Assembly: GCF_013004605.1 (NCBI RefSeq)
Contig: NZ_JABEMA010000003.1
Span: forward strand, 1 to 45,896
Direction: 5' to 3'
Source: Pseudokineococcus marinus
Lineage (GTDB): Bacteria > Actinomycetota > Actinomycetes > Actinomycetales > Quadrisphaeraceae
Length of the DNA stretch: 45,896 nucleotides
The position numbers and the translations under genes are program-made. The notes under the pieces were generated by a model. It searched no databases. It saw only the letters and a list, made by a program, of their open reading frames with translations, and was not told the origin of the DNA. This document shows, piece after piece, positions 4,704 through 40,913 of the stretch. Each line of letters starts with the position of its first letter. Position 1 is the first letter of the stretch.

Positions 4704-4798
4704 GCCGCCTCCTCAGCCGTCCGGAGCGACCGGGCAGAACGACGGCTCCTCCGAGGGGCGGGCAGAGGCATGCGCGCCGCCAGGGCGTCGCCGGTCAT
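4700..4798 (-). CDS. Possible 32-residue arginine-rich small protein upstream of the alcohol dehydrogenase
   Basis: ATG at 4798 is preceded by GAGGAGACCGAG, a strong ribosome site, and the TGA overlaps the dehydrogenase ATG as ATGA, the usual sign of translational coupling. The peptide is basic and low in complexity, starting MTGDALAARMPLP. I recognise no family. It could be a coupling leader, the tail of a decayed gene (an 80-codon open frame extends upstream to 4942), or chance. The 260 bp between 4704 and 4963 hold nothing else that I can support. Confidence 0.25.
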   Translation of the reverse strand: MTGDALAARMPLPAPRRSRRSARSLRTAEEAA

Positions 4799-4963
4799 CT
4801 CGGTCTCCTCGTCGTCGCGGAGCGCGCCAGCTCGTCGGGCGCGGCTCCACACTGCGGCAGGCGCCCGAGCCTCGCCCGAGGAGGTCGCAGACGAGCCGTC
4901 AGGCGACGACGAGGACCGCCGCACCCGACGTCGCAAAAGCACCGCCGCGGGTCGTCGTCGCCG

Positions 4964-26266: not shown

Positions 26267-26361
26267 CCAGTCCGACGGCGAGCGCCGAGTCCGACGTCGC
26301 ACCGGTCGCCGGCGCCGTCCGACCACCCGGGCGTCGGACTCGAGACGCGACGTCGGACTCG
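26267..26361. repeat. 95-bp four-box intergenic element, copy 1
   Basis: Boxes of the 13-mer CGAGTCCGACGTC lie at 26267-26279 (2 mismatches), 26286-26298 (perfect), and inverted at 26330-26342 (1 mismatch) and 26349-26361 (perfect). Spacing is 6, 31 and 6 nt, identical to copies at 39740 and 40819. The arms could pair into a long hairpin with a 31-nt apical loop. This copy lies between two convergent gene ends. Confidence 0.85.
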
Positions 26362-26374
26362 GCGGAGCGGCCCG

Positions 26375-27082
26375 TCAGGCCGTCGGCCCGCCGGGCACCG
26401 GCACCGCCGAAGCCGGCACGACGACGTCCGCCCCGGCAGCGCCCGGGGCGACGAGCACGGCGTTCGGCTCGTCCGTCGCGCCGACCCACGCCACTGCGTC
26501 GTCGGGCGTCTTGCCGAAGCGCACGTGCCGGGCGACGAGGCGCTCGCGGCGGACGTCGTCGTCGACGGCGACGAACCACACCTCGTCGAGGAGGCCGCGC
26601 ACCGGCGTCCACGCCACGTCGTCGATCAGCAGGTAGTTGCCCTCGGTCACGACGAGCCGGCAGTCCGGCTCGACGGGCAGCGCACCCGCGAGCGGCTGCT
26701 CGAGATCGCGCTCGAAGGCGGGCGCGTAGACCGTCGCGGACGACGGCGCCCGCAGCCGCTCCAGGAGGGCGGCGTAGCCGTGCGCGTCGAAGGTGTCCGG
26801 CGCCCCCTTGCGTCCCAGCCGTCCGAGGCGCCGCAGCGCGACGTCGGCGAGGTGGAAGCCGTCCATGGGCACGTGCGCCACCCACGTCGCCGAGCAGCCC
26901 TCGGGCGGGTCCGCCGCCAGCGCGGCGACGACCGCCTCGGCGAGCGTGGTCTTGCCGGCTCCCGGCGCACCGCACACCCCGAGGACCGACCGGCCCGGGC
27001 GCTCCGCGAGCGCCCGGGCACGGTCGAGCAGGTCGCCGAAGGTCACCTCCGCCGTCGGCGGGGCCGACGTCGAGCTCGTCAC
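26375..27082 (-). CDS. P-loop sugar/nucleoside kinase family protein
   Basis: A 235-residue kinase of the uridine kinase/pantothenate kinase-like fold that also includes the FrcK-type kinases of fructose ABC loci. Walker A is GAPGAGKT at 38-45; VPMDGFHLAD holds the acidic residue expected after it; RLVVTEGNYLLID is the Walker B-like strand; LVARHVRFGKTPDDA is the lid region. The GTG overlaps the stop of the isomerase gene as GTGA, so it closes the ABC-isomerase-kinase operon. It most likely phosphorylates the sugar produced by the isomerase. An ATP/nucleoside role elsewhere is not excluded. Confidence 0.82.
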   Translation of the reverse strand: MTSSTSAPPTAEVTFGDLLDRARALAERPGRSVLGVCGAPGAGKTTLAEAVVAALAADPPEGCSATWVAHVPMDGFHLADVALRRLGRLGRKGAPDTFDAHGYAALLERLRAPSSATVYAPAFERDLEQPLAGALPVEPDCRLVVTEGNYLLIDDVAWTPVRGLLDEVWFVAVDDDVRRERLVARHVRFGKTPDDAVAWVGATDEPNAVLVAPGAAGADVVVPASAVPVPGGPTA

Positions 27083-27996
27083 GACCGCCGCCGGGCGGCC
27101 GCCATCCCGAGCTCCATGACGCCGCGGGCGTGCCGGGCGAGGTCGTCGCCGTCCTCCCAGAGGTCCCGCCAGACGGCGAGGTCGTTGGACAGGCCGCGCG
27201 CCACGACGCTGGAGGAGAACGACTCGAAGGTGATGGGACCCGTGTACCCGACATCGACGAGGGCGTGGAAGAACCCCGTGAGGTCGATGGACCCCGAGCC
27301 GAGGTAGCCGCGGTGGTTCTCCCCCACGTGGACGTACCCGAGGCGCTCGCCGACCTCCCGCACCGGGCGGACGAGGTCGTCCTCCTCGATGTTCATGTGG
27401 TACGTGTCCAGGTGCACGAGCACGTTGTCCGCGCCGATGTCGTCGGCGAGGGCGAGCGCCTGCCGCGCCGTGTTGACGACGTTCGTCTCGTACCGGTTGC
27501 ACACCTCCAGCCCGAGCGTCATGCCGCGGGAGGCCGCCTCGCCCGCGAGGCCCCGCAGCACCGTCACGACGTTGCGCCGGCCGGCGTCGGTCAGCGGACC
27601 GGGGTACTTCCCGAGCGCCGAGTACAGGGCGCCGGTGAGGTGCGTGCCGCCGAGGTCCTGGGTCACCTGCAGCGAGTCGTGCAGGAGCGCCTCGCCACGG
27701 GCCACGACGGCCGGGTCGTCGCTGGAGACGTCGGCGTCGAAGGCGAGTCCGCGCGAGCAGGCGACGCCGAGCCCGGCGTCGTCGAGCAGCCGGCGCGCGT
27801 GGGCGACGTCGAGGCGGTCGCGGTCGTGCAGCGAGAGCTCGAGCAGGTCGTAGCCCGCGGCGGCGGTGCGGGCGACGGCGTCCTCCATCTCGGCGGGCGT
27901 CGTCCCGCCCGTCCAGACGAGGGCGTGGACGCCGAGCGGGTTGCCGGTGCGGGGGGCGGCGCGCCCCGGGGCGGGCGCGTCGGTCGTGGTGGTCAC
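27079..27996 (-). CDS. Sugar isomerase/epimerase, D-tagatose/D-psicose 3-epimerase-like TIM barrel
   Basis: A 305-residue xylose isomerase-like TIM barrel. The two catalytic/metal glutamates are read as E164 in LGLEVCNRYETN and E258 in ITFESFSS; between them are the metal ligands in HLDTYHMNIEE and the VHVGENHRGYLG segment. This is the pattern of ketose 3-epimerases (DTE/DPE), which act on free ketoses. It follows the ATPase gene by 19 bp and is coupled to the kinase gene. The likely role is to convert an imported rare ketose (allulose, tagatose or similar) into one the kinase can phosphorylate. Confidence 0.85.
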   Translation of the reverse strand: MTTTTDAPAPGRAAPRTGNPLGVHALVWTGGTTPAEMEDAVARTAAAGYDLLELSLHDRDRLDVAHARRLLDDAGLGVACSRGLAFDADVSSDDPAVVARGEALLHDSLQVTQDLGGTHLTGALYSALGKYPGPLTDAGRRNVVTVLRGLAGEAASRGMTLGLEVCNRYETNVVNTARQALALADDIGADNVLVHLDTYHMNIEEDDLVRPVREVGERLGYVHVGENHRGYLGSGSIDLTGFFHALVDVGYTGPITFESFSSSVVARGLSNDLAVWRDLWEDGDDLARHARGVMELGMAAARRRS

Positions 27997-28015
27997 TGGT
28001 GGTCTCCTCGACGGC

Positions 28016-28813
28016 TCAGGCGCTCTTGGCGCCGGTGATGAGGGCGACGATCTCCTCGCCCGTGGTGTCCTCGGTGCGTCGCCCGGCGGCGCAGCGACCG
28101 GAGCGCATGACCCACACCTGGTCGGACAGGCGCATGACCTGCTCGAAGTTGTGGCTCACGAGCAGCACGGCCCGGCCGTCGTCCCGCAGGCGCCGGATCA
28201 GCGCCTCGACGCGCTCGGTCTCCTGGACGCCCAGCGCGGCCGTCGGCTCGTCCATGATCACCAGGCGCGAGCTGAAGCCGGCGGCGCGGCAGATGGCGAC
28301 CGCCTGGCGCTGGCCTCCCGAGAGCCGCCGCACGCGCGAGGTCGTCGAGGGCACGTTGACCGACAGCCCCGAGACCATGTCCCGAGCCCCGGCCCTCATG
28401 CCGCGCCGGTCGAGCACCCGGAAGGGGCCGACGCCCTTGGTCAGCTCGCGGTTGAGGTAGAGGTTCTGCCAGACGGCGAGGTCCTCCACGAGCGCGAGGC
28501 TCTGGTGGACGGTCTCGATGCCCGCCTCCCGCGCCTCCTGCGGGTCGCGGAAGGACACGGCGTCCCCGCCGAGCTCGATCGTGCCGTCGTCGGGCCGGTG
28601 CACCCCGGCGACGCACTTGACGAAGGTCGACTTGCCGGCGCCGTTGTCGCCGACGATCGCGGTGATCTCACCCGCCCGCAGGTCGAGGTCGACGTCCTTG
28701 AGCGCCCGGACGCTGCCGAAGGACAGCGAGACCCCGCGGGCTCGCAGGAGGACGTCGCCCGTCGGCTCGGACGGCCCGGTGGGGCGGGGGGCGGTGGTGG
28801 TGGGGGAGCTCAT
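28016..28813 (-). CDS. Sugar ABC transporter ATP-binding protein (single-domain, FrcA-like)
   Basis: A 265-residue ATPase with Walker A GDNGAGKS at 55-62, signature LSGGQRQAV and Walker B LVIMDEPTAALG. It has only one ATPase domain, like FrcA/XylG-short, unlike the double-domain RbsA. The ETVHQSLALVEDLAVWQNLYLNRE region is typical of the ribose/fructose class. Its ATG overlaps the stop of the permease gene (ATGA). It powers import of the sugar bound by the lipoprotein encoded upstream. Confidence 0.94.
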   Translation of the reverse strand: MSSPTTTAPRPTGPSEPTGDVLLRARGVSLSFGSVRALKDVDLDLRAGEITAIVGDNGAGKSTFVKCVAGVHRPDDGTIELGGDAVSFRDPQEAREAGIETVHQSLALVEDLAVWQNLYLNRELTKGVGPFRVLDRRGMRAGARDMVSGLSVNVPSTTSRVRRLSGGQRQAVAICRAAGFSSRLVIMDEPTAALGVQETERVEALIRRLRDDGRAVLLVSHNFEQVMRLSDQVWVMRSGRCAAGRRTEDTTGEEIVALITGAKSA

Positions 28814-29844
28814 CGCTGGTACCTCGAGAGGAAGGCGGCGAGGACGACGACCGAGCCGACGGCGACCGGCTGGTAGAACTGCGAGACGCCGAGCAGGGTC
28901 AGCCCGTTGGTGAGGGCGGTGAGCAGCAGGGCGCCGAACAGGGGCCCGGCGATGTTGGCCCGCCCTCCCATGAGAGCGACACCGCCGAGGACGACCGACG
29001 CGACCGCGTTGAGCAGGAACTGCGTGTTCGCGGCGGGCTCCGCGGCGCCGATGCGAGCGACGAGCAGGACCCCGGCGAGGCCCGCGCAGGTGCCGCTCAG
29101 CGTGTAGACCGCGGTCTTGACGCGACGGGTGCTGATGCCGGTGGCCGTCGCGGCCTCCGGGGACCCGCCCGCCGCGAGCACGTGAGTGCCGAAGCGCGTG
29201 TGGAAGAGCAGGACGTGCGCCGCCGCGGCGACGACCAGGGCCACGAGCACCGGGTACCCGACGACGCCGACGCCACCGGTCGAGAGCCGGAGCATGAAGG
29301 TGCTGATGATCGACTGCGGCTGCCCGCCGGAGACGACGAGCGCGAGCCCCGAGGCGATCGACAGCCCACCGATCGTCACGATGAAGTCGGTGATGCGCCC
29401 GTAGCCGATGACGAGGCCCTGGGCGAGGCCGAAGAGCAGGCCGGTCACGACGGACACGACCACGCACACGCCCACGGGGGCGCCGGCGCCGAAGGCGACG
29501 CCGAACATGACGGCGCTGAAGGTCATCGTCGAGGCCACGGCGAGGTCGATGCCGCCGGTGGCCACGGTGAAGGTCTGCCCCGTGGCCAGGACGACGAGGA
29601 TCGCCGCCGCCGCCAGCATCGCCTCGATGTTGCCGAGGGTCAGGAAGGTCGGGTCGAGGACCTGGAAGAGGACCACGAGGACCACCAGCCCCACCGGGGC
29701 GGCCAGCTCGGCCCAGGTGCCCGGGTCGGCCAACCGCTCCCGCCACCGCGGACGCGCCGGGGTGGCGGCGCCGTCGCGGTCCGCGCCGTCAGGGCCGCTG
29801 CGGCGTGCGCCGTCCCTGCTGGTGCTCGTCGTCGCGCTCACCAC
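28810..29844 (-). CDS. Sugar ABC transporter permease (ribose/fructose type)
   Basis: A 344-residue permease of the RbsC/FrcC type with about eight to ten helices. Landmarks are ATGGIDLAVASTM (the conserved 'tGGiDLSVgs' loop, here with Ala-Val-Ala), FIVTIGGLSIASGLALVVSGGQP, GGSPEAATATGI (the ATPase-contact loop, usual form G.N..AA..sGI, here Ser for Asn) and VLGGVALMGGRANIAGP. GGAGGGGGCGC precedes the tandem GTGs at 29844 and 29841; the first is used. It is translationally coupled to the ATPase gene. Confidence 0.93.
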   Translation of the reverse strand: MVSATTSTSRDGARRSGPDGADRDGAATPARPRWRERLADPGTWAELAAPVGLVVLVVLFQVLDPTFLTLGNIEAMLAAAAILVVLATGQTFTVATGGIDLAVASTMTFSAVMFGVAFGAGAPVGVCVVVSVVTGLLFGLAQGLVIGYGRITDFIVTIGGLSIASGLALVVSGGQPQSIISTFMLRLSTGGVGVVGYPVLVALVVAAAAHVLLFHTRFGTHVLAAGGSPEAATATGISTRRVKTAVYTLSGTCAGLAGVLLVARIGAAEPAANTQFLLNAVASVVLGGVALMGGRANIAGPLFGALLLTALTNGLTLLGVSQFYQPVAVGSVVVLAAFLSRYQR

Positions 29845-29884
29845 GCGCCCCCTCCGGTCGTCCGCGGTGCGCTCACGCCGGCCA

Positions 29885-30916
29885 TCAGCCGGCCGTCGGC
29901 GACGCCGCCGCGGCGCCGTCCTCGAACGGCTGGGGGAAGGCCGCGAGCGCCTGCTCGGCGACGTCCGGCGTGACGAGCGCCACCGGCGCGTCGACCTCGG
30001 CCTCGACGTCCTCGCCCCGCGCCAGGCTCGCGCAGGCCTCGACGCCGAGCTGGCCCACGGCGTAGGGGTACTGGGCCACCGTCGCGGCGAGGTCGCCGTC
30101 GGCGACCGCCTGCAGCGCCTCCTCGTTGCCGTCGACGCTGATGACGCTGATCTGGTCCTCCAGACCGGCGTTGGCCACCGCTCGAGCGATGCCGAGGCCC
30201 ATGTCGTCGTTCGCGGCGAAGAAGCCCTTGATGTCCGGGTTGGCGGTGATGAGGTCGGTGGCCGCGGTGAGCGCCTGCTGGCGGTTCCAGTCGGCGGAGA
30301 CGACCGGGAGCAGGTCGAGGTCGCTCGCGGCCGACGAGAAGCCGTCGATCCGCGCGGCGCTGGTGACGTCACCCGCCACCCCGGCGACAAGGCCCACGGT
30401 GCCCGAGCCGCCGAGCAGCTCGACCATGTGCTCACCCGCCAGGGCGCCGGCGGCCTCGTTGTCCGTGCCGATGTAGCTGTCGATCTCCAGGCCGGCGGCC
30501 TGGGCCGCCTCCTCGTCCACCGGCTGGTCGATGTTGACCACGGGCGTGCCCTCGGGCAGCTGGGCCAGGCCCTGGACGAGGTTGTTGCCGGTGATCGGGT
30601 TGACGACGTAGCAGTCGTAGGACTGCTGGGCGAGCGCGGTGAGGCGCTCGGCCTGCCCCGTCGTGTCGGTGATCGACTGCGCGGCCTGCACCTCGACGCC
30701 GACGCCGGCGTCGGACGCGCCGGCCTCGATGCCGTCGCGCATCGCCTGGAAGAAGGGGTTGTCGAGCCCCTTGATGACGGCGGCGACGCGGACGTCGCCG
30801 CCGTCTCCGCTCGGGGTGTCGGAGCTCGTGGCGTCCTGCTCGCCCCCGCACGCCGAGGCGAGCAGGAGGACGGGCAGGACGGCGAAGGACAGGGGTCGCA
30901 GGCTCGGGCGCGTCAT
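29885..30916 (-). CDS. Sugar ABC transporter substrate-binding lipoprotein
   Basis: A 343-residue periplasmic-binding protein of the RbsB/FrcB group. The lipobox LASAC puts the lipidated Cys at C23. Mature landmarks are VIKGLDNPFFQAMRDGIE (the usual 'k.l.NpFf..m..G'), IDQPVDEEA, GEHMVELLGGSGTVGLV, AANDDMGLGIARAV and VISVDGNEEALQAVADG. GAGGAGACGCG precedes the ATG. It is the first gene of the importer operon and carries the ROK-controlled promoter upstream. A Ser/Thr/Asp-rich linker follows the lipid anchor. Confidence 0.95.
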   Translation of the reverse strand: MTRPSLRPLSFAVLPVLLLASACGGEQDATSSDTPSGDGGDVRVAAVIKGLDNPFFQAMRDGIEAGASDAGVGVEVQAAQSITDTTGQAERLTALAQQSYDCYVVNPITGNNLVQGLAQLPEGTPVVNIDQPVDEEAAQAAGLEIDSYIGTDNEAAGALAGEHMVELLGGSGTVGLVAGVAGDVTSAARIDGFSSAASDLDLLPVVSADWNRQQALTAATDLITANPDIKGFFAANDDMGLGIARAVANAGLEDQISVISVDGNEEALQAVADGDLAATVAQYPYAVGQLGVEACASLARGEDVEAEVDAPVALVTPDVAEQALAAFPQPFEDGAAAASPTAG

Positions 30917-30942
30917 CGCGTCTCCTCGGGTGGGCCGCTGGC

Positions 30943-30966
30943 TTAATGTCTGCGGCTAGACGTTAA
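30943..30966. promoter_or_regulatory. Inverted repeat TTAATGTCT-6-AGACGTTAA, candidate ROK operator
   Basis: Two 9-bp arms (30943-30951 and 30958-30966) match with one mismatch and stand out as AT-rich in this GC-rich region. The right arm overlaps the -10 box of the importer promoter. ROK repressors commonly bind such AT-rich inverted repeats. That the adjacent ROK protein binds here is inference. Confidence 0.75.
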
Positions 30967-30989
30967 GGCGGCCGTTGATGGCTCGTCAA
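30960..30989 (-). promoter_or_regulatory. Promoter TTGACG-18-TAACGT of the sugar importer operon
   Basis: On the minus strand TTGACG (30989-30984) and TAACGT (30965-30960) are 18 nt apart, a near-consensus primary sigma promoter. The -10 lies in the inverted repeat, so a bound repressor would block it. The leader would be about 37 nt. Confidence 0.7.
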
Positions 30990-31003
30990 GCACGAAAAGG
31001 GTG

Positions 31004-31032
31004 TTGCCCCGGACACATTGGTGACGTACCGT
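31004..31032 (+). promoter_or_regulatory. Promoter TTGCCC-17-TACCGT of the ROK gene
   Basis: TTGCCC (31004-31009) and TACCGT (31027-31032) are 17 nt apart. The -10 ends 9 nt before the ATG at 31042, consistent with a leaderless transcript, and this decides the start of the gene. Confidence 0.55.
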
Positions 31033-31041
31033 CCCGCGCTC

Positions 31042-32247
31042 ATGGACACGGCTCTCGGCGACGGCGCGGCCCTCAGCGACGGGGCGGCCGAGCTGCTGCG
31101 CCGGCTGCGAGGTGGTCGTCCGGTCACCCGCGCCGGGGTGGGCGCCGAGACGGGCTGGGCGCGGGCGACCGTCAACGCCCGGCTGGACGAGCTCCTCGCG
31201 ACCGGCCTCGTCGTGGACGCCGGCGTCCGGGGCGGCTCGCGGGGACGACCGGCAGGCCGCTTCGTCTTCAACGCCGCACGCGGGGGGCTGCTCATCGCCG
31301 ACGTCGGCGCCTCGGCGGCACGGCTGGCGCACTGCGACCTCGGGGGCGGCATCTGCTCGCAGACGACCGTCGACCTCGACATCCGCGACGGTCCGGACCG
31401 CGTCCTCGAGCTCGTGACGTCGGGACTCGCGTCGCTGCCCACGCGGGACGAGCTCCCCGCCTGGGCGATGGGCATGAGCCTGCCGGGCCCCGTGGAGCAC
31501 CCGACAGGGCGCATCGTCTCCCCGCCGATGATGACGGGCTGGGACGGCGTGACGGTGCCCGCCCTGCTCGAGCCTCGGCTCGGGGTGCCCGTGCTCGTCG
31601 AGAACGACGTCAACGCGATGGTGTGGGGCGAGCACGTCCTCGCCGAGGAGCCGCTGGACGACCTGCTGCTCGTCAAGGTCGGCACCGGCATCGGCGCGGG
31701 CCTCGTCACCCACGGGCAGATCCTGCGCGGAGCCCGCGGCTCCGCCGGCGACCTCGGCCACACCCACACCGCCGGGGACGTCACCGACCGCGAGCCGCCG
31801 CTGTGCCGCTGCGGGAAGCTCGGCTGCCTCGAGGCGTACGCGGGAGGCTGGGCGCTCGCCCGGGACCTCGTCGACGACGGGCTCGAGGTGGCCGACGTGC
31901 GGGACGTCGTCGCAGCCCTCCAGGCCGGGGACCCCCGCGCCGTGCGCCGCGTCCGCGAGGCGGGCCGCGTCCTGGGCATCGGCATCGCCGACGCCGTGAG
32001 CCTGCTCAACCCCTCGGAGGTCGTCGTCTCGGGCGGCCTCGCCGTCGCGGGTGAGCACCTCCTGTCCGGCATCCGCGAGCGCGTCGCCGCGTTCTCCCTG
32101 CCCCTGGCGACGACCGGGCTGCGCATCCGCGTGAGCAGCCGCCCCCACGACGTCGGCGTCGTCGGCATGGCCGACCTCGTGGCCCGGTGGGCGCTCGACC
32201 CCGCACGGGTGAACGACGTCCTGGCGCGGGTGGGCGCCCCGACCTGA
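31042..32247 (+). CDS. ROK-family transcriptional repressor
   Basis: A 401-residue ROK protein. The N-terminal winged HTH (about 10-70) reads LLRRLRGGRPVTRAGV, GWARATVNARLDELLATGLV. The sugar-binding ROK part has LIADVGASAARL, VENDVNAMVWGEH (the Asp that contacts sugar is kept), VGTGIGAGLV, and the zinc site with GHTHT followed by CRCGKLGC. It is divergent from a sugar ABC importer and likely represses it until its sugar appears. ATG 31042 was chosen from the promoter; TTG 31018 and GTG 31021 are alternatives without ribosome site. Confidence 0.93.
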   Translation: MDTALGDGAALSDGAAELLRRLRGGRPVTRAGVGAETGWARATVNARLDELLATGLVVDAGVRGGSRGRPAGRFVFNAARGGLLIADVGASAARLAHCDLGGGICSQTTVDLDIRDGPDRVLELVTSGLASLPTRDELPAWAMGMSLPGPVEHPTGRIVSPPMMTGWDGVTVPALLEPRLGVPVLVENDVNAMVWGEHVLAEEPLDDLLLVKVGTGIGAGLVTHGQILRGARGSAGDLGHTHTAGDVTDREPPLCRCGKLGCLEAYAGGWALARDLVDDGLEVADVRDVVAALQAGDPRAVRRVREAGRVLGIGIADAVSLLNPSEVVVSGGLAVAGEHLLSGIRERVAAFSLPLATTGLRIRVSSRPHDVGVVGMADLVARWALDPARVNDVLARVGAPT

Positions 32248-32268
32248 CGCCGCAGCGGCGGACGCAGG

Positions 32269-32308
32269 ACCGCCCGCGTCCCGGCGGGGAGCCGGGGACG
32301 CGGGCGGT
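32269..32308. terminator. Bidirectional terminator between ROK and amylase genes
   Basis: ACCGCCCGCGTCCCGG and its complement (one extra G bulge) form a 16-bp stem around a 7-nt loop, placed between two convergent genes. There is no U-tract, as is usual in actinobacteria. Confidence 0.8.
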
Positions 32309-32322
32309 CGGGACGGTGCAGG

Positions 32323-35154
32323 TCAGCCCTGCTCGACCTCCACCGCCACGCGGTGCGTCGCGTGGTCGTACACGAACGTCACCGGGCCACCGGGGTGGTC
32401 GAGGGTGATGTTCGACCCGTTCGGCACGCCGTCGGCGCCGTAGTTCTCCGTCCACGCCCGGTCGACGGCGACCTTGTAGGAGTACTGCCCCGGCGGGAGG
32501 TCGACCGTCAGCCGCCAGCGGCCGGTCTCCGCGTCGTAGGTCATCTGCGCGGCGTCGCAGTCGGGCTCCCAGTCGCCGGGGCAGCCCATCTCGCTGTTGA
32601 GGTCGCCCGGCACCGAGACGGCGCCCGGCTGCTCGACCGACTCCTCCACCGCGGTGACGAGGTGCGTCGCGGTGCTGTAGGTGAAGGTCACCGCGCCGCC
32701 GCTCGTCGTCAGCGGGATGTTGGCGCCGTTCGGCTCACCGCCCGCGCCGTAGTTCTCGTCCCACGACCGGTCGACGGCGATCTTGTACTCGTAGGAGCCC
32801 GCGGGCGGCGCCACCGTCAGCGACCAGGTGGCCGTGTCGGCGTCGTAGGTCATCTGCGCCGCGTCGCACGCCGGCTCCCAGTCACCGGGGCAGCCGATCT
32901 CGCTGCCGAGGCTGCCCGCGACCGCCACGGTCGTCGGCTCGCCGCCGACCCCGGGGCCGGGCTCGGGGACGACGACGGCGGTCGCGCTCGCGCCCGCGAC
33001 GTTGCCCGAGTGGTCGCGCACGACGGCGCGGTACTCCAGCGCCGTGCCCTCGGCCGTGTCGGTGACGTCGTGGAAGACGCGGTACGGCGCGTTGTCGTCC
33101 GTCCCGAGCACCTGCCACTCGTCCGTCGAGCCGGCCGGGCGGACGGCGAAGGTCACCTGGTCGAAGCCGCCACCGGGGACGTCGACCGACACCTCGGCGC
33201 GGCCGCTGACCTCCTCGCCCGTCGTGAAGACCGGCGTCGGGGCGGTGCGCGCCGGGCGCATCGGCTTGCTGGCCTTCCACACCACCGCCGACAGCGGCGG
33301 CACCGTGACGCGCGCCGTGCCGTCGTGGTCGGACCACACGGCCCCGGTGCCCGCCGGCCACACGGCCTTGTAGCGGGTGCGGGTCGTGAAGGTGTCGAGG
33401 TCGACGGTGCGCGCCGTGTCGCTGTTGTTGGTGGCGACGAGGTACTCGACGTCGTCGTCGTCCGAGATGCGGCTGAAGGCGTAGACGCCCGCGCCGTCCT
33501 CGGCGTAGCGCTGCACGAGCGCGCCGTCGGCGAGGGTCGGGTTCTCCTCGCGCAGGGCCGACAGCTCGGCGATCGTCGTGTACAGCGGGTGGCTCGGGTC
33601 GAAGTTCTCGCCTCCCGTCGTGGCGTCGGTGCCGACGAGGACGTCGTCGTTGTAGGTCGCCACCTGCGAGGCGAACATGTCCTGGCGCGCGTCCTGGTCG
33701 CCGCCGTCGCCCGTGAAGCCCTGCTCGTCGCCGTAGTAGACGACCGGCTGGCCGCGCGTCAGGTACATGAGCGCGTGGGCGAGGCGGTCGCGCTCCAGCA
33801 GCTCGTCGCCCTCGGCGCCCGCGTCCTGCAGGAACATGCCGATACGGCCCATGTCGTGGTTGCCGAGGAAGGTCGGCAGCGAGTACGCGTTGCTGTCGGC
33901 GTCGGTGTACCAGTCGTCGGCGGCGAAGAGGTCCGCCATCTGCTGCGTGGCCCCGCCGCTGGCGAAGGACTGCGCCCGCGCCTGGAAGCCGAAGTCGATG
34001 ACCGACTGCAGCTCCGCCTCCGTCGTGTAGTGCGAGAGGAACTCCGGGTCGGAGTTGTAGACCTCGCCGAAGGAGAAGAAGTCGGGGTTGCCGATCTCGG
34101 CGGCGTGCTCCTCGATCGTCGGCGCGAAGTCCTTCCAGAACTCGTCGCCGACGTGCTTGACGGTGTCGATCCGGAAGCCGTCGATGCCGAGGTCGACCCA
34201 GGTCTTGTAGATCTCCTCCATGCCCGCCACGACCTCGGGCCGCTCGGTGAAGAGGTCGTCGAGGCCGGAGAAGTCGCCGTACTGGTCCGACTCCCCGCCG
34301 TCGAACCGGGCGTTCCCGCGGTTGTGGTACATCGTCGGGTCGTTGAGCCAGGCCGGCGTCTTCGCCGTCGCGTCGCCCGGCATCGGGAAGACAGGGGTGT
34401 ACGGGAAGGACGTCGCCGCGTCGAGCGCCGGGAACTCGCTGGTGCCCGCGTGGTCGCGGTCGTCGAAGACCTCGCCGCTCGCGTCGCGGTAGGGCTCGGC
34501 GTCCTTGGTGATGTAGGTCTGCGAGCCCTCGGCGTACTGGATGACGTCGGCGGTGTGGTTGGTGATGATGTCGAAGAAGACCTTCATCCCCCGCTCGTGC
34601 GCCTCGTCGATGAGGCCCTCGAGCTCCTCGTTCGTCCCGAGATGCGGGTCGATCTGCGTGAAGTCGGTGATCCAGTAGCCGTGGTACCCGGCCGAGACGG
34701 CGTCACCGGCGCCCTGCACCGGGCGGTTGACGAAGGACGGCGTCAGCCAGATCGCCGTGGTGCCGAGGCCCTCGATGTAGTCGAGCCGCTGGCGGATCCC
34801 CTCGATGTCACCCCCGTGGTAGAAGCCCTTGGCCGTGGGGTCGAGGCCGCTGACGAGGCGGTCGCCCCCGTAGCCGCCGTCGTCGTTGGTCGGGTCGCCG
34901 TTCTCGAAGCGGTCGGCCATGACGAAGTAGAAGCGCTCGCGGGTGAGGTCCTCGCGGAGCGAGCCGCGCGCGAGCGCGCGGTCCTGGGACTGCTGAGCCT
35001 TGGCTGCCTGCGCCGCAGCCTTGCGGGCCTGGGCCTCCTGGGCGGGCGCGGGCCGGTCGGACGGTGGAGCGGCGGCGGCGGACGGTCCGAGCAGCAGCGC
35101 GGCGGCGACGGCCGCGGCTCCCGCTCCGGACACGAGGGCAGAGGGATGACGCAC
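32323..35154 (-). CDS. Secreted alpha-amylase (GH13) with two C-terminal X25-like starch-binding modules
   Basis: A 943-residue exported enzyme. The signal peptide is about 30 residues (VSGAGAAAVAAALLLGPSAAAA), followed by an Ala/Gln-rich coiled linker. The GH13 barrel (about 65-520) has DIITNHT (region I), the nucleophile D330 in GFRIDTVKH, acid/base E364 in FSFGEVYNSD and D434 in FLGNHDMGR. After a beta domain and a fibronectin-like module come two tandem copies of a pullulanase X25/SusE-like module (about 743-840 and 847-943), each with CPGDWEPxCDAAQMTYD and YKxAVDRxWxENYG. It cleaves starch or glycogen outside the cell. GTG 35154 follows GAGGAGG with 5-nt spacing. No sugar-specific regulator adjoins it. 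Confidence 0.94.
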   Translation of the reverse strand: MRHPSALVSGAGAAAVAAALLLGPSAAAAPPSDRPAPAQEAQARKAAAQAAKAQQSQDRALARGSLREDLTRERFYFVMADRFENGDPTNDDGGYGGDRLVSGLDPTAKGFYHGGDIEGIRQRLDYIEGLGTTAIWLTPSFVNRPVQGAGDAVSAGYHGYWITDFTQIDPHLGTNEELEGLIDEAHERGMKVFFDIITNHTADVIQYAEGSQTYITKDAEPYRDASGEVFDDRDHAGTSEFPALDAATSFPYTPVFPMPGDATAKTPAWLNDPTMYHNRGNARFDGGESDQYGDFSGLDDLFTERPEVVAGMEEIYKTWVDLGIDGFRIDTVKHVGDEFWKDFAPTIEEHAAEIGNPDFFSFGEVYNSDPEFLSHYTTEAELQSVIDFGFQARAQSFASGGATQQMADLFAADDWYTDADSNAYSLPTFLGNHDMGRIGMFLQDAGAEGDELLERDRLAHALMYLTRGQPVVYYGDEQGFTGDGGDQDARQDMFASQVATYNDDVLVGTDATTGGENFDPSHPLYTTIAELSALREENPTLADGALVQRYAEDGAGVYAFSRISDDDDVEYLVATNNSDTARTVDLDTFTTRTRYKAVWPAGTGAVWSDHDGTARVTVPPLSAVVWKASKPMRPARTAPTPVFTTGEEVSGRAEVSVDVPGGGFDQVTFAVRPAGSTDEWQVLGTDDNAPYRVFHDVTDTAEGTALEYRAVVRDHSGNVAGASATAVVVPEPGPGVGGEPTTVAVAGSLGSEIGCPGDWEPACDAAQMTYDADTATWSLTVAPPAGSYEYKIAVDRSWDENYGAGGEPNGANIPLTTSGGAVTFTYSTATHLVTAVEESVEQPGAVSVPGDLNSEMGCPGDWEPDCDAAQMTYDAETGRWRLTVDLPPGQYSYKVAVDRAWTENYGADGVPNGSNITLDHPGGPVTFVYDHATHRVAVEVEQG

Positions 35155-35186
35155 GTGAGCCTCCTCGACGGTGAGTGACTGGGCGG

Positions 35187-35192
35187 ATCGTA
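35187..35192 (-). promoter_or_regulatory. Candidate -10 box (TACGAT) of the amylase gene
   Basis: TACGAT on the minus strand would give a leader of about 25 nt before GTG 35154. The -35 region is poor. Confidence 0.35.
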
Positions 35193-35289
35193 GGCGGGCG
35201 CGGGCCCGACGCACAGCGGCCTCCCGCGGTCGACCGAGGGGCCGCCGAGACCGCACCCGGGGAGACTCGGCGGACGGGTCGCCGCACCC

Positions 35290-35340
35290 CCGCCACCCGT
35301 GCGCCGCAGCAGCCGGGTGGCGGCCTCCCGCGCACGGGTG
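35290..35340. repeat. Overlapping, mutually exclusive inverted repeats upstream of the protease
   Basis: CCGCCACCC (35290-35298) pairs with GGGTGGCGG (35315-35323), and CACCCGTGCGC (35294-35304) pairs with GCGCACGGGTG (35330-35340). Both stems are perfect and share bases 35294-35298, so they cannot form together. The site lies in the 259-bp divergent region, about 75 nt before the protease start. It could be a leader switch, an operator pair, or GC-driven chance. Confidence 0.4.
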
Positions 35341-35413
35341 ACGCCGCTGCTCCGCCGGCGGCGCGGCACCGACCTCCCTCGGGACGACATCCGATCCGAG
35401 GACAGGAGTGCAG

Positions 35414-38400
35414 GTGAGCCAGAGCAGGACGAGGCGCGCGGCGAGGGTGGGCGCGAGCGCACTGCTCGCCGTCGCGCTGCTGCCGCCGATGACGGCGGGC
35501 GCGACGACGGGCGCGACGACGGGCGGCGACGCCGCCACGAGCGCGGACGGGCCCGCGCAGGCGGTGCTCGAGGGCGAGGTGGTGCGGCTCGAGGCCGCGC
35601 CGCACGCGCACCCGGACGGCGCCGGCCATGCCGACGCGACGCACGACCACGAGGCGCACGAGCACGAGGCGGCACCGGCGGGCGGGCACGAGCACGTCCA
35701 CGCTGACGGCTCGGTGCACCACCACGCCGCGGAGCCCGCGCTGGCGCAGGCCGTGCGGGCGGACGCTCCGCCGTCGGAGGGCGCGTTCGACGTCGCCGCG
35801 CCCGCGGGGCTGCGGCTCGAGGACGGCACGCTCGTCGGCGTCGAGGGCCTCGAGAGCTCGCGCGCGCGGACCGGCGACGAGGTGCGCCTCGTCGTCGAGG
35901 TGCCCGCCGAGCTGGAGGACGCCGTCGCCGACGCCGCGGGCGAGCGTCGCCTCGACGCGGCCCGCGAGCGCCCGGCCGCCGACGGCTCCGCCGTGGCCGA
36001 GGCCGTCGTCACGGCCGCGGCCGAGGAGGGCGAGACCCTCGCGGCGACGGTCGGGACGGTCGAGGTCACCACCGCGGCCCCGCCGCCCACCGCCGCCACC
36101 ACAGCTCCGGCGCGACCGGTGACGGTCGTCGTCGCCGACATGGGCGCCGGCACGGAGCCCGTGCCGACCGACGCCGACCTCACGTCGATGGTCCAGCGCG
36201 CCTCCGACTACTGGTCCGAGCAGAGCGCGGGCCGCGTCACCTTCGCCCTGGCGAAGGCGCCCACGTACTACGCGACCACCCGGACCTGCAGCGACCTGTG
36301 GAGCCTCTGGAGCGAGGCGGGCCAGCGGGCCGGGTACGTGGACGGAGCGCGCACGCACCTCGTCCTCGTGCTCGTCGACGAGGACGGCAAGGGCTGCGGC
36401 TACGGCGTCGGCACCGTGGGGCGCGGGGTCGACGACGGCGGCCTGTCGGCCCTGGCCAACGCCTCCGACCTCTCGCTCGTCACCCACGAGCTGGGCCACA
36501 ACCTCTCGCTCGAGCACGCCAACGCCGTCGAGTGCACCTCCGACCCGCGCCAGGACTTCGCCGGCGACGCCGCGACGGCGCCCTGCGGCGACCGCGAGTA
36601 CGGCGACGCGATCGACGTCATGGCGAGCTCGGACGGGACGCCCGGCTCCCTCGCGGCGATGTCCCGCGCGATGCTCGGCTTCCTCGACGCGGGCGAGCGC
36701 AGCACCGTGACCGCCGTCGGGACGTCGCTGGTCGAGCTGGCGCCCGTCTCCGGTGGCGCGCGCACGGGCGTGAAGGACCTCACCGTCACCGACCCCCGCA
36801 CCGGGGTCGCCTACCGCCTCGAGAACCGCCAGGCGACGGGCCGCGACCAGGCGCGCCTGACCCGGTGGCGGGCCACGACGGGTCTGCGGGTGCTGCGCGC
36901 GCAGAAGGACAGCCGCGCGAGCCTCGCGCTCGACGCGACGCCCACCGTGCGCTCCACGAGCAGCGTCGACGTCGACCGCGCCCTGCCGTCGGGCCAGGTG
37001 TGGCGCAGCGCCTCCGGCGGCGTCGAGGTCCGCACGAGCGCGGCGTCGGACGGGCGCGTGGTCGCCCGCGTGAGCCTCGCCCGCACCGGCGAGGCCCACG
37101 GCGCGCTGGCGACGACGACGACCGTCGAGGTCCCCGAGCTCGTCGCCGGGCGGCCCGCCGTCCTGCGCGGCGCGGTCTCGGCGGGCGCCGGCACGGTCGT
37201 GCCGCAGGGCGTCGTGACCGTCGACGTCGCCGGCGCGCGCGCCACGGCGACGCTCGCCACCGACGGCTCCTACGCCGTCGAGGTCGTGCCCGCCCGCAGC
37301 GGCGCGCAGACGGCGGTCGTCGGCTACACGCCGCAGGACGCGAGCCGGTGGTCGGCGTCCTCGACGAATCGCGACGTCGTCGTGGGTGCGGACCCCGCGA
37401 CCCAGGACCCCAGCAGCCCGGACCCCGGCACGGGTGAGCCCGGCACCGGGGACCCGGGCACCGACGACCCCTCGACCGAGGGCCCCGGCACGGACGACCC
37501 GGGCACCGAGGACCCCGGCACGGACGACCCGGGCACCGACGAGCCCGTCACGCCGACGCTCGTCGTGGGCGTCGGGACGGCCTCCGGCGCACCGGTCGAC
37601 GCCGCGACGCCCGCGGTGCTCGACGTCCGCCTCGACCCGGCGGGCGCCGGCGCCGACGGCGAGGTCGTCGTCACGGCGGGCTCCACGACGCTGGCGTCCG
37701 CCGCGGTCGTCGACGGCGCGGCCCAGGTGTCCCTGCCCGTGCTGCCCGGCGGCCGGCACGAGCTCGTCGTCGCCTACGACGGCGGCAGCGCCGGCAGCGC
37801 GGCGAGCACCCCGGTGACCCTGGACGTCGCCCGCGTGACGAGCACGACGTCCGTCACGACGACGACGGCGCCGACGGCCACGCGCAGCGCGGTGCTCGAG
37901 GCCCGGGTGACGAGCGCCGTCGCCCCGAGCGGCGCGGTGGAGGCCCGCCTCGGCAGCCGCCTCCTCGCCCGCGGCACGGTGTCCGACGGCGTCGCCCGCG
38001 TCGCGCTGCCGGTGCTCCCGGCCGGCACGCACACCGTGGCCGTCACCTACCGCGGCGACGTGTCGAGCGCGCCGTCCACGACGAGCACGCGCCTCGTCGT
38101 CGTCAAGGACGCGGCGACGCTCGAGGTGCTGCCGCCGAAGGCGCCCACGACGGGCGGCGGCCAGCCGGTCGTCGTCCGGGTCCGCGCCGGCGGCGTCGCG
38201 GCGACGGGGCAGGTGCGCCTCGTCGTCGACGGCCGCACCGCCTCGCGGGCGCCGCTCGTCCGCGGGGAGGCGCGCCTGCCCCTGGCCAAGCTGCCCGCGG
38301 GCCGGCGCACGGTGACCGTCGCCTACGACGGCAGCGCCACCGCCCTCGCGGCGTCCACGCCGCTCGTCCTCGACGTCGTCCGGGCCGGCGGCTCGACGAA

Positions 38401-38668
38401 GGCCTCGCCGAGGACGACGACGCCGGGGCGCGGGAAGACGACGACGGTCGCCGTCACCGTCACCTCCCCGGCCGGGACGGCGACGGGTGACGTCGTGCTG
38501 CGCGACGCCGGCGGGCGCGCCCTCGCGAAGGGCGTGCTGCGCGACGGCCGGGTCACGCTGACCCAGCCGGCGCTGGCCCGCGGGACGCACCGGCTCACGG
38601 TGCACGCCGCGGGTGACGCGCTGACGGCGCCCAGCCGCTCGGCGACGTGGACGGTGACGGTGCGCTGA
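35414..38668 (+). CDS. Secreted zinc metalloprotease with His-rich propeptide and Ig-like repeats
   Basis: A 1084-residue exported protein. A signal peptide (LLAVALLPPMTAGA) is followed by a very His-rich stretch (about 62-107) and a propeptide-like region. The peptidase (about 230-480) has the zinc motif H358-E-L-G-H362 with third His H368 and Met-turn M403 in IDVMASS, as in gametolysin/reprolysin-type metzincins. The Gly normally three residues before the third His is Ser365. Next comes a Pro/Thr/Asp linker (PGTDD repeats), then about four Ig-like (Big_3_5-type) modules to the end. GTG 35414 follows AGGAG by 5 nt; GTG 35408 is possible. No sortase signal or membrane anchor is seen, so it should be released or bind the wall or a substrate through the Ig modules. 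Confidence 0.88.
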   Translation: MSQSRTRRAARVGASALLAVALLPPMTAGATTGATTGGDAATSADGPAQAVLEGEVVRLEAAPHAHPDGAGHADATHDHEAHEHEAAPAGGHEHVHADGSVHHHAAEPALAQAVRADAPPSEGAFDVAAPAGLRLEDGTLVGVEGLESSRARTGDEVRLVVEVPAELEDAVADAAGERRLDAARERPAADGSAVAEAVVTAAAEEGETLAATVGTVEVTTAAPPPTAATTAPARPVTVVVADMGAGTEPVPTDADLTSMVQRASDYWSEQSAGRVTFALAKAPTYYATTRTCSDLWSLWSEAGQRAGYVDGARTHLVLVLVDEDGKGCGYGVGTVGRGVDDGGLSALANASDLSLVTHELGHNLSLEHANAVECTSDPRQDFAGDAATAPCGDREYGDAIDVMASSDGTPGSLAAMSRAMLGFLDAGERSTVTAVGTSLVELAPVSGGARTGVKDLTVTDPRTGVAYRLENRQATGRDQARLTRWRATTGLRVLRAQKDSRASLALDATPTVRSTSSVDVDRALPSGQVWRSASGGVEVRTSAASDGRVVARVSLARTGEAHGALATTTTVEVPELVAGRPAVLRGAVSAGAGTVVPQGVVTVDVAGARATATLATDGSYAVEVVPARSGAQTAVVGYTPQDASRWSASSTNRDVVVGADPATQDPSSPDPGTGEPGTGDPGTDDPSTEGPGTDDPGTEDPGTDDPGTDEPVTPTLVVGVGTASGAPVDAATPAVLDVRLDPAGAGADGEVVVTAGSTTLASAAVVDGAAQVSLPVLPGGRHELVVAYDGGSAGSAASTPVTLDVARVTSTTSVTTTTAPTATRSAVLEARVTSAVAPSGAVEARLGSRLLARGTVSDGVARVALPVLPAGTHTVAVTYRGDVSSAPSTTSTRLVVVKDAATLEVLPPKAPTTGGGQPVVVRVRAGGVAATGQVRLVVDGRTASRAPLVRGEARLPLAKLPAGRRTVTVAYDGSATALAASTPLVLDVVRAGGSTKASPRTTTPGRGKTTTVAVTVTSPAGTATGDVVLRDAGGRALAKGVLRDGRVTLTQPALARGTHRLTVHAAGDALTAPSRSATWTVTVR
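37483..37542 (+). repeat. Tandem 30-bp repeat in the protease linker
   Basis: Two adjacent 30-bp units (37483-37512 and 37513-37542) differ by one base and encode PGTDDPGTED-type decapeptides. Looser 15-bp versions extend upstream to about 37420. Such coding minisatellites can change length by slippage. Confidence 0.8.
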
Positions 38669-38679
38669 CGCCCCTCGGG

Positions 38680-38723
38680 ACGACGACGGCCCCGCTCTCC
38701 TCGGAGGGCGGGGCCGTCGTCGT
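38680..38723. terminator. Terminator downstream of the protease, bidirectional
   Basis: ACGACGACGGCCCCGC pairs perfectly over 16 bp with its complement around a 12-nt loop, between two convergent genes. No U-tract follows. Confidence 0.85.
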
Positions 38724-38751
38724 GCTGCGCTCGTGGCGCCGGGGGGGGCCG

Positions 38752-39669
38752 TCAGCCGCGCAGGCCCTGCCGCAGCTCGGAGAGCGCCTCGGACAGGCTG
38801 ACGCGCGGCGCCCAGCCCCACGCCCGGGCGCGGTCGGTGACGAGCTGGCCGGTCCACTCGGGCTCGTCCGTCCACTCCGGCTCGACGCCGACCGCCTCGC
38901 CGACGGTGCCGAGGTAGTCGCGCCAGGTGGCGGGCTCGCCGGCGACGAGGACGGGCGTCGTCGCGCCCTCGAGGGGGCCGCGCCCAGGGTCGTCGGACGT
39001 CGCGACCGCGCCGGTGGCGACGTCGGCCACGAGGTCGGCGAGGTCGTGCACGTGGACCCACGACCACGTCTTCGCCGGGTTGGCCGAGCGGTCGCCGCCG
39101 TCGCGGACGTCGGCCGGCCGCAGCGTGTTCCACACCGACGACTCACCGGCGCCCATGATCGCCGGCGGGCGCACGAGCACCGTCGTCATCCCGCCGACCT
39201 CCGCGAGGGCGCGGTCGGTGGCGTTCTTCGTGTCCGGGTAGTCACCGCTGCCCTCGGGCAGCAGAGGGCCGTCCTCCGCGACGTCGCCGACGCCGGCCGA
39301 CCGGTCGTAGACCCCGGCCGTCGAGAGGTGGACGAAGCGCGCCACGCCGGCGTCCTTCGCCGCCCGGGCGAGGACGGGCGTGCCCTCGACGGCGACCTCG
39401 TGCTGCACCTCCCGCGGCGAGCCCATGGGGTGGACGGTCGTGACGACGGCGTCGGCTCCCCGGACGACGTCGCGGGCGAAGCCCTCGTCGGCGAAGTCGC
39501 CCACGTGCTCCTCGACGCCTTCGAGCACCGGCGCGGCGCCCTCTCGACGGACGACGGCGCGCACGAGCGCCGACCGCTCGCGCAGCGCGCGACAGACCGC
39601 CTCCCCCACGAGACCGTTGGCGCCGGTCACCACGACGACGGGGGCCTGCGCCCCGGTGCTGTCAGCCAT
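38752..39669 (-). CDS. NAD-dependent epimerase/dehydratase-like protein (extended SDR)
   Basis: A 305-residue SDR-fold protein. The NAD motif is TGANGLVGEAV (G16-x-x-G-x-x-G22), followed by VGDFADEGF (the Asp after a strand) and VTTVHPMGS. FVHLSTAGVYD gives the Ser/Thr of the active site, and DYPDTKNATD holds Tyr-x3-Lys, so the catalytic residues are complete. Substrate unknown; likely a sugar nucleotide or small carbonyl compound. ATG 39669 is preferred; the open frame continues to 39849 but runs into the repeat element and encodes Arg-rich nonsense. Confidence 0.87.
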   Translation of the reverse strand: MADSTGAQAPVVVVTGANGLVGEAVCRALRERSALVRAVVRREGAAPVLEGVEEHVGDFADEGFARDVVRGADAVVTTVHPMGSPREVQHEVAVEGTPVLARAAKDAGVARFVHLSTAGVYDRSAGVGDVAEDGPLLPEGSGDYPDTKNATDRALAEVGGMTTVLVRPPAIMGAGESSVWNTLRPADVRDGGDRSANPAKTWSWVHVHDLADLVADVATGAVATSDDPGRGPLEGATTPVLVAGEPATWRDYLGTVGEAVGVEPEWTDEPEWTGQLVTDRARAWGWAPRVSLSEALSELRQGLRG

Positions 39670-39739
39670 GCGCACCACCCTGCCAGCGCGCCGCGGAGGC
39701 GGCGCGGCGTGCTCCGGCACGCCCACCGCCCTTGGTCGT

Positions 39740-39834
39740 CGAGTCCGACGTCCCGCGCCGAGTCCGACGTCCCACAGGTCGGGGACGGCGGACCACCGGC
39801 GCGACGTCGGACTCGAGGCACGACGTCGGACTCG
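39740..39834. repeat. 95-bp four-box intergenic element, copy 2
   Basis: All four boxes are perfect copies of CGAGTCCGACGTC or its complement: 39740-39752, 39759-39771, then inverted 39803-39815 and 39822-39834, spaced 6, 31 and 6 nt. It lies downstream of the DUF559 gene and upstream of the SDR gene start. Confidence 0.92.
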
Positions 39835-39873
39835 AGGCGAGCGCGCCACCCGCCCGGGCCACGACGGCGACGG

Positions 39874-40749
39874 TCAGCGGGCGCCGAGCAGCCCGGCCAG
39901 CTGCCGCAGCAGCTCCTCCGGCCGGGCCAGGACCCTCGCGTCGACCTGGAGCACCGTCCACCCGAGGGCCCGCAGGCGGTTGTGGCGGGCGAGGTCTCGG
40001 CTGTGCTGGCGCGCCTCGCGGTGGTGCCCGCCGTCGTACTCGACGGCCACGCGGGCGGAGGGCCAGGCGAGGTCCAGGCGGGCGACGAAGCGTCCGGCGT
40101 CGTCGTGCACCTCGTGCTGCGGCACAGGAGCCGGCAGGCCGGCGTCCTCGAGCACGAGCCGCAGGGCCGTCTCCTGCGGCGACTCGGCCGCGGGCACCAG
40201 CCGCTGCGCGCGCCGGCGGGCCAGCGCCACACCGCGGTCGCCGCGCTGGCGGTCCAGCTGGGCGAGCACCTCGTCGACGCCGACGCCGCACCGGTGCGCC
40301 AGGGCCTCCGCCGCGCAGAGCGCCCGCGGCATCGGCAGCGTCCGCAGCAGGTCGACGGCGGTGCGCACGGGCGAGGTCGCCGGGCCCCACCGGGTCTCGA
40401 CGACGTCGCCCGCCGGAAGAGCGCACTGCTGGACGACGACGAGGGGCGGCCGCGAGCGCGGCGCCGGCCGTGCCGCCAGCACGAGGACCGGCTCGTCGTC
40501 ACGGACCTCCGGGACGCCGTGCGCCCACGCCGCCGACAGCCCGCCGAGCACGCCCCGTCCCCGCAGGGCCCGCAGCGCGCCGAGGACGCGGGTGCCGTGG
40601 TCGTCCGGCGTTCCCGCCGTCACGTGGACGCCGCGCACGACCTGCCGGAAGCCGGACCCGGCCAGCTGCGCCGTCGTCACGTGCTCCAGCAGCTCCTGCC
40701 TCCGCAGCGGGACGCCGACGAGGCGCTGCGGGACGGCGGGGCGGCTCAC
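39874..40749 (-). CDS. DUF559 endonuclease-like protein with AbiEi-like N-terminus
   Basis: A 291-residue protein of a family common and often multicopy in actinobacteria. The N-terminal half (about 15-120) resembles AbiEi-type antitoxin/wHTH regions (RRQELLEHVTTAQLAGSGF, VVRGVHVTAG, LSAAWAHG). The C-terminal half is a Vsr-like DUF559 nuclease fold: ETALRLVLEDAGLP, the metal-binding pair in LDLAWPSARVAVEYDG, then HHREARQHSRDLARHNRLRALGW. DNA binding or cleavage is plausible, but the function is not established. GTG 40749 has no ribosome site. Both ends of the gene face copies of the four-box element. Confidence 0.82.
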   Translation of the reverse strand: MSRPAVPQRLVGVPLRRQELLEHVTTAQLAGSGFRQVVRGVHVTAGTPDDHGTRVLGALRALRGRGVLGGLSAAWAHGVPEVRDDEPVLVLAARPAPRSRPPLVVVQQCALPAGDVVETRWGPATSPVRTAVDLLRTLPMPRALCAAEALAHRCGVGVDEVLAQLDRQRGDRGVALARRRAQRLVPAAESPQETALRLVLEDAGLPAPVPQHEVHDDAGRFVARLDLAWPSARVAVEYDGGHHREARQHSRDLARHNRLRALGWTVLQVDARVLARPEELLRQLAGLLGAR

Positions 40750-40818
40750 GGGAGCACTGTGCGGCAGTCCGGCGGCGTCTCGCCGGGCCCCTGTGGACGA
40801 CGACCGCCGCCGAGCGCG

Positions 40819-40913
40819 CGAGTCCGACGTCCTGCCTCGAGTCCGACGCTGCGGGGGTAGAGGGAGGCTCCGGAAGCGTCCGTCGTCGGACTCGGTGTGC
40901 GACGTCGGACTCG
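40819..40913. repeat. 95-bp four-box intergenic element, copy 3
   Basis: Boxes at 40819-40831 (perfect), 40838-40850 (2 changes at the end), inverted 40882-40894 (1 change) and 40901-40913 (perfect), spaced 6, 31 and 6 nt as in the other copies. The 31-nt centre is unrelated to that of copies 1 and 2 as far as I can see. Confidence 0.88.

Follow-up and report, generated by a model that had tools for sequence, protein, structure and literature searches.

A family of four-box palindromic repeats associated with a predicted AbiEi-Vsr (DUF559) nuclease gene in Pseudokineococcus

Introduction

How does an arrangement of four short boxes come to recur with identical spacing in the genome of Pseudokineococcus marinus (coded G000)? 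The three 95-bp elements that raise this question start at positions 26267, 39740 and 40819 of the window, by which we mean the whole stretch of 45,896 nucleotides analysed here, and are named below by these first coordinates. A preliminary description made from the letters alone had reported the elements and had ascribed their pattern to selection or copying that acts on boxes and spacing and not on the whole sequence. It had offered three possible explanations, namely a protein array, a non-autonomous repeat of REP type and a long RNA hairpin whose loop would be 31 nt long.

Results

Geometry and copies of the four-box element

The three elements (26267-26361, 39740-39834 and 40819-40913) are present as described, and the layout 13-6-13-31-13-6-13 is exact in all of them. 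The 13-bp box had been called constant, with variable linkers and centres. The variation holds, as neither linker nor centre sequences are the same among the three elements, but the constancy does not: eight of the 12 boxes are exact and the other four carry one or two changes. In element 26267, two of four boxes are exact (26286-26298 on the plus and 26349-26361 on the minus strand), whereas the box at 26267-26279 (plus), CCAGTCCGACGGC, has two mismatches and the one at 26330-26342 (minus) has one. All four boxes are exact in element 39740 (39740-39752, 39759-39771, 39803-39815 and 39822-39834), and two of four in element 40819 (40819-40831, 40838-40850, 40882-40894 and 40901-40913). The exact 13-mer occurs eight times in the window, each time within one of the three elements; with up to two mismatches it occurs 46 times, compared with 12.2 (sd 3.2) expected from shuffles.

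Copy numbers beyond the window are based on pattern and model searches of the genome. Searching G000 for two boxes separated by six nucleotides (up to three mismatches) gave 15 matches, eight forward and seven reverse, which combine into eight quartets, while the reversed control pattern gave none in the same genome. The family is therefore larger than the three copies first noticed, with eight in G000 and more in the related genomes G001 and G003, and linkers and centres are not identical among copies, which rules out a plain duplication. Two of the G000 copies bracket a nuclease gene, whereas element 26267, situated between convergent genes, and five more are dispersed solo copies. Solo copies lie mostly just past stop codons, and no four-box copy in Pseudokineococcus was found in a divergent gene pair. 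The genes beside the copies are unrelated housekeeping genes, which excludes a regulon of related genes. In G000, three of the copies are found inside 15 kb, and in G003 three are found inside 6 kb.

Conservation and presence or absence among congeners

We compared G000 with three congeners, G001, G002 and G003 (uncultured Pseudokineococcus sp. 2-287). The pattern search found about 9-10 four-box copies in G003, one of which has a third box in line with the 19-bp period kept, and four in G001; it found none in G002, which has relict or shorter relatives. Across eight orthologous G000/G003 pairs, identity is 92% in the boxes, 77% in the linkers and 79% in the centres, compared with 70% in the flanks (boxes versus flanks, p = 5e-18), which bears out the proposal that selection or copying acts on boxes and spacing.

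Most G000 copies occupy sites that are orthologous in G003 and copy number in Pseudokineococcus is low, indicating that any movement in this genus is old or slow. Occupancy differs between species at some sites. Element 26267 is shared by G000 and G003 (locus L057, 13323-13417) and absent from G001, which has a plain GC hairpin after the same stop codon; the copy at C46 of G000 is absent in G001; and one two-box copy of G001, a form described below, has no equivalent at the corresponding junction of G000 or G003. In three filled/empty comparisons, whose flanks have diverged, neither a target-site duplication nor a clean insertion boundary is visible. In a nuo-type operon, G000 and G003 share an orthologous copy that is placed in frame within one of the coding genes, and G002 has a decayed version of it. 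In the named genome collection, the exact half-element occurs in 12 stretches, five from Pseudokineococcus and seven with single matches elsewhere (Streptomyces, other actinobacterial MAGs and an Armatimonadetes MAG). These seven were taken as chance, and matches of the sequence model outside the genus, all with E of at least 0.002, were treated as noise.

Two architectures with different structural constraint

Pairing across the four-box element is not above expectation. Linkers pair at 61 of 126 positions, compared with 65.4 when right arms are shuffled among copies, centres at 125 of 210 compared with 123.5, and the boxes show no excess of compensatory changes. Given that linkers, centres and boxes all lack covariation, the four-box form is a sequence-defined array. 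Its RNA is predicted to fold strongly, but this foldability is due to the boxes themselves. A hairpin RNA as the selected feature of this form is thereby not supported, while the other two suggestions of the preliminary description, a protein array and a non-autonomous REP-type repeat, both fit. No Rfam covariance model matches the element, and the three window elements have neither sigma-70 promoter nor T-tract terminator signatures.

The sequence model of the element also found shorter relatives of 56-57 bp in G001 and G002, which consist of the inner boxes and a palindromic centre. In a pattern search of 119 genomes of the order, all four Pseudokineococcus genomes turned out to have CGAGACCGACGRA, a second type of box, and the others gave only a single non-palindromic match. 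The arms of the two-box form in Pseudokineococcus do covary: at the inner 13 positions 273 of 338 are paired, compared with 213.4 (sd 7.6) after shuffling, and at box position 5 A and T are swapped jointly in both arms. One family thus has two architectures: with two boxes, the inner stem is constrained by structure, and with four boxes, the centre is free of such constraint.

Two window copies flank a predicted AbiEi-Vsr nuclease gene

Elements 39740 and 40819 flank the gene at 39874-40749 (minus strand), the former downstream and the latter 69 bp upstream of it. This placement of two of the three elements around a nuclease gene had been overlooked in the preliminary description and is the key find of the present analysis. 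The product, our candidate for the cognate enzyme, combines an AbiEi-like half (about residues 1-185) with a DUF559 nuclease domain of Vsr/I-Bth0305I type (190-291), the C-terminal part being assigned to DUF559 by Pfam. In the AlphaFold2 model (mean pLDDT 92.6), the C-terminal third matches the catalytic domain of the homing endonuclease I-Bth0305I with Z 12.5 and Vsr with Z 9.7. Residues 1-185 match the AbiEi antitoxin 6y8q with Z 11.2, a loose match given the rmsd of 5.9, and the N-terminal remainder matches Rv2827c with Z 8.7. AbiEi models also match homologs of the protein, and a PDB profile adds to the evidence for the Vsr/I-Bth0305I-type domain. In an alignment of 40 homologs E193, R197 and D226 are invariant, and E237, D239, G240, D252 and R255 are present in nearly all. 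The protein is accordingly predicted to be an AbiEi-type fold fused to a Vsr/I-Bth0305I-type nuclease fold. No DUF1814 toxin gene is adjacent; the neighbours encode an NmrA-like epimerase and AzlD.

In G001 and G003, too, the bracketed gene lies between two four-box elements. In G002 it is interrupted by a stop and has 62-bp two-box palindromes on both sides. Further DUF559 genes of the genus have palindromes as well: the one at C11 of G003 adjoins a two-box palindrome, and the one at C4 of G001 lies between palindromes of a third family, CGAGTGCCGCG.

Bracketing of DUF559 genes across the order

A search of about 99 genomes of the order provided 115 loci of homologous DUF559 genes, which we scored as bracketed if arm-sharing palindromes were present on both sides within 500 bp. 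This was the case for 26 of the 115 loci but for only three of 197 other genes of the same stretches (p=9e-10), one of the three being in fact a piece of the DUF559 gene that is interrupted in G002. Palindromes are present both left and right of the gene at 32 loci, and their arms match in 26 of these, compared with two of 992 cross-locus combinations, showing that the match is locus-specific. Two orthologues of the window gene had escaped the detector owing to the low palindrome score of one element each; with these included, 28 genes are bracketed, and they represent 17 genera in 11 families. Between the stop codon and the downstream palindrome the median distance is 4 bp.

At four loci of a separate DUF559 clade (L234, L264, L268 and L240), the bracketing palindromes in turn consist of four boxes each, which start with CGAG and follow a period of 19 or 20 bp; this is the layout of the window elements in a different sequence. 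About three-quarters of the DUF559 homologs lack such brackets, and the bracketed genes are scattered over the tree, with 19 changes compared with 25 after shuffling. Nothing relevant linking DUF559 to palindromes, AbiEi or REP was found in the open-access literature.

Dispersed copies and paired change in a second genus

Another family of the order contains a genus, here g11, represented by 18 genomes. The palindrome that brackets the gene in one of them, G053, has 47 copies in that genome and 23, 18, 7, 4 and 2 copies in five others, while a control pattern gave no match in g11. Copies are 57-58 bp long, with a variant of 68-69 bp. Their outer arms are nearly constant and their inner 9 bp are highly variable yet complementary (256 of 333 positions paired in G053, compared with 165.5, sd 8.1, expected). 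Of 16 solo copies examined, 13 lie between convergent and three between tandem genes and none between divergent genes, against a background of 83, 221 and 93, respectively; the convergent copies are often at most 30 bp away from both stop codons. The palindrome is present in six of 11 genomes with this DUF559 clade and in none of seven without it, an association in a small sample. Around one solo copy, gene order differs between species of the genus.

The gene occupies one locus in many species of g11. In the six species compared, the two palindromes at the locus match each other with scores of 36-48, whereas same-side palindromes of different species score 5-12 in distant and 22-41 in close pairs. 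The two brackets hence change together, matching within and diverging between species. Stops break the gene in several species, where the palindromes of this locus have been lost or, in G053, retained; the solo copies of G053 persist although its bracketed gene is broken.

Discussion

A nuclease-linked repeat family as the best explanation

We put the probability at roughly 0.6 that the four-box elements belong to a family of palindromic repeats that is linked to the AbiEi-Vsr (DUF559) nuclease and spread by it in a REPtron-like manner. The balance also tips slightly towards a broader claim, a new class of repeat-spreading system in which AbiEi-Vsr fusion nucleases recognise multi-box palindromes bracketing their own genes, spread solo copies of them and drive their matching change. 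Such a system, spanning no fewer than 11 families of a single actinobacterial order, would be an independent counterpart of RAYT-REP with PD-(D/E)XK chemistry.

AbiEi binds two inverted repeats and Rv2827c four at once (PMC7319586), which provides a precedent for this fold occupying a four-site array. We infer that the AbiEi-like half binds the boxes, each being a putative site, so that up to four protein copies would line up on one element every 19 bp, two in each orientation. A nick or cut by the nuclease half at the element or at a target would follow, and repair would then copy the palindrome to a new location or between existing copies. The gene at 39874-40749 with its two bracketing elements would represent the source unit, from which solo copies would have dispersed, to be retained mostly after stop codons, where they presumably do little harm. 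Binding, cutting and copying by repair would account for the solo copies, the co-changing bracket pairs and the complementary arms of the two-box form. Several observations count against the scheme: neither a target-site duplication nor a clean insertion boundary is visible in the three filled/empty comparisons, most DUF559 homologs have no brackets and those that do are scattered on the tree, copy number in Pseudokineococcus is low with mostly orthologous sites, solo copies of G053 outlast its broken gene, and two copies in genome G132 flank genes other than DUF559. Spreading by the nuclease and retention where copies are useful or harmless could both hold. If the scheme is correct, repeat spreading arose independently at least twice, and the DUF559 proteins, common uncharacterised actinobacterial nucleases, would gain a testable function together with a ready list of DNA substrates.

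The main rival, which we consider unlikely, is that the elements are bidirectional terminators or other 3'-end elements useful to the host between converging genes, with the nuclease association as a by-product. The convergent bias of the g11 solo copies, the lack of divergent four-box copies in Pseudokineococcus, the strong folding, the arm covariation of the two-box forms and the GC hairpin that G001 has in place of element 26267 are all in line with this explanation. Termination would, however, require no 13-bp boxes, no constant period of 19 bp and no matched pairs flanking the genes of a single family, and it sits poorly with window copies that have no T-tract, four-box copies without covariation and an orthologous pair in frame within a nuo-type operon gene.

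Improbable, in our view, are operators of an AbiEi-like regulator, with the upstream copy repressing its own gene and the other copies controlling a regulon. AbiEi-family proteins repress their own promoters through inverted repeats, four in the case of Rv2827c (PMC7319586), and element 40819 lies 69 bp upstream of the gene; for this copy an operator role may still hold. But the copies avoid the promoter-rich divergent regions and sit past stop codons beside unrelated genes, and operators would leave the downstream bracket without a role and the nuclease domain and the dispersed solo copies unexplained.

We regard as very improbable an array for a chromosome-organising or other host DNA-binding protein (a parS-like or nucleoid site) that is unrelated to the bracketed gene: boxes defined by sequence at a fixed period and the clustering of three copies in G000 and G003 would suit it, but such sites are usually widely conserved, whereas the element sequence is genus-specific, and the DUF559 association elsewhere with other sequences would be left unexplained. 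That the elements are of REP/BIME type and are moved by a RAYT tyrosine transposase from another part of the genome is scarcely credible. Their dispersal, the bracketing of an enzyme gene and the location after genes do resemble REPs (PMC3733652), but the Y1/HUH domain PF01797 has no match in any of the 10 genomes tested, while five of 14 control genomes match, and the element ends lack the GTAG tag. A Y1 gene in the 5% of G000 that is unsequenced would not save this explanation for the complete genomes.

Relation to known systems

Rickettsia palindromic elements and MITEs are likewise palindromic and dispersed. The present family resembles these, including one in-frame copy in a coding gene, but differs in its box array, its associated nuclease gene and the lack of a visible target duplication in the three comparisons with diverged flanks.

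The closest parallel to a nuclease-linked family is the REPtron/TIRtron (TnpA_REP, RAYT), in which REP or TIR palindromes bracket the gene of a repeat-specific enzyme and solo copies lie mostly after or between convergent genes, occasionally within genes (PMC3733652, PMC8266576). A palindrome-bracketed enzyme gene and dispersed solo copies, mostly after or between genes, are shared features. The enzyme, however, is an AbiEi-Vsr (DUF559) protein and not an HUH tyrosine enzyme, and, unlike REPs, the palindromes are mostly 56-95 bp long, share no GTAG tag at their ends and in one form are four-box arrays. RAYTs are essentially the one known class of partner enzymes of repeated palindromes, and CGTC REPs, among others, have no assigned enzyme (PMC3733652). 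We rate the association as categorically new because the enzyme is unlike every known palindrome partner tested; should mobilisation be disproved, it would fall back to an unusual family of terminators or operators.

Each half of the protein has relatives of its own. The N-terminal half shares its predicted fold with AbiEi of the AbiE type IV toxin-antitoxin systems, but the window gene has a fused nuclease instead of a DUF1814-type toxin gene beside it, and boxes also occur far from the gene. With I-Bth0305I and the Vsr repair nuclease the protein shares the predicted fold of the catalytic domain and conserved acidic residues; unlike them, it is encoded outside an intron or intein, is bracketed by palindromes and has an AbiEi-like half.

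Variants of the four-box element in Pseudokineococcus

A four-box copy with a centre of 30 bp lies in frame within a gene of a nuo-type operon in both P. marinus (L049:6002-6095, on G000:C550) and its congener G003 (L058:6758-6851, on G003:C23), and a decayed remnant of it is found at about 12739-12813 of L116, the equivalent position in the congener G002. The G003 ortholog of the window element at 26267 (L057:13323-13440) has three in-line boxes on its right side with the 19-bp period kept, as if one unit had been added. G002 has no four-box copies, and its counterpart of the window DUF559 gene (G002:C6:104436-105296; L156 / L122) is interrupted by a stop; the losses of boxes and gene may be linked.

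Other palindrome pairs and nearby elements

A different DUF559 gene of Pseudokineococcus, on C4 of the congener G001, is bracketed by a third palindrome family, CGAGTGCCGCGAMGYGGTGGTC (L184:3803-3859 and 4779-4843). Palindromes of a further family, CATGTGGTTGNTCCGGGATT, flank both sides of a non-DUF559 gene in genome G081 (L319:1408-1476 and 2318-2378), and a remnant of this family is present in L323 of genome G129. At two loci, matching palindromes enclose neighbours of the DUF559 gene and not the gene itself (L214:3771-3829 and 5756-5818; L236:1220-1280 and 2896-2952), perhaps representing displaced brackets.

Close to the bracketed locus, L275:6033-6194 is an ordinary match to the c-di-AMP riboswitch (RF00379). 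At window positions 38680-38723 a 44-bp GC hairpin separates two convergent genes; G003 has its counterpart, and it resembles a common terminator.
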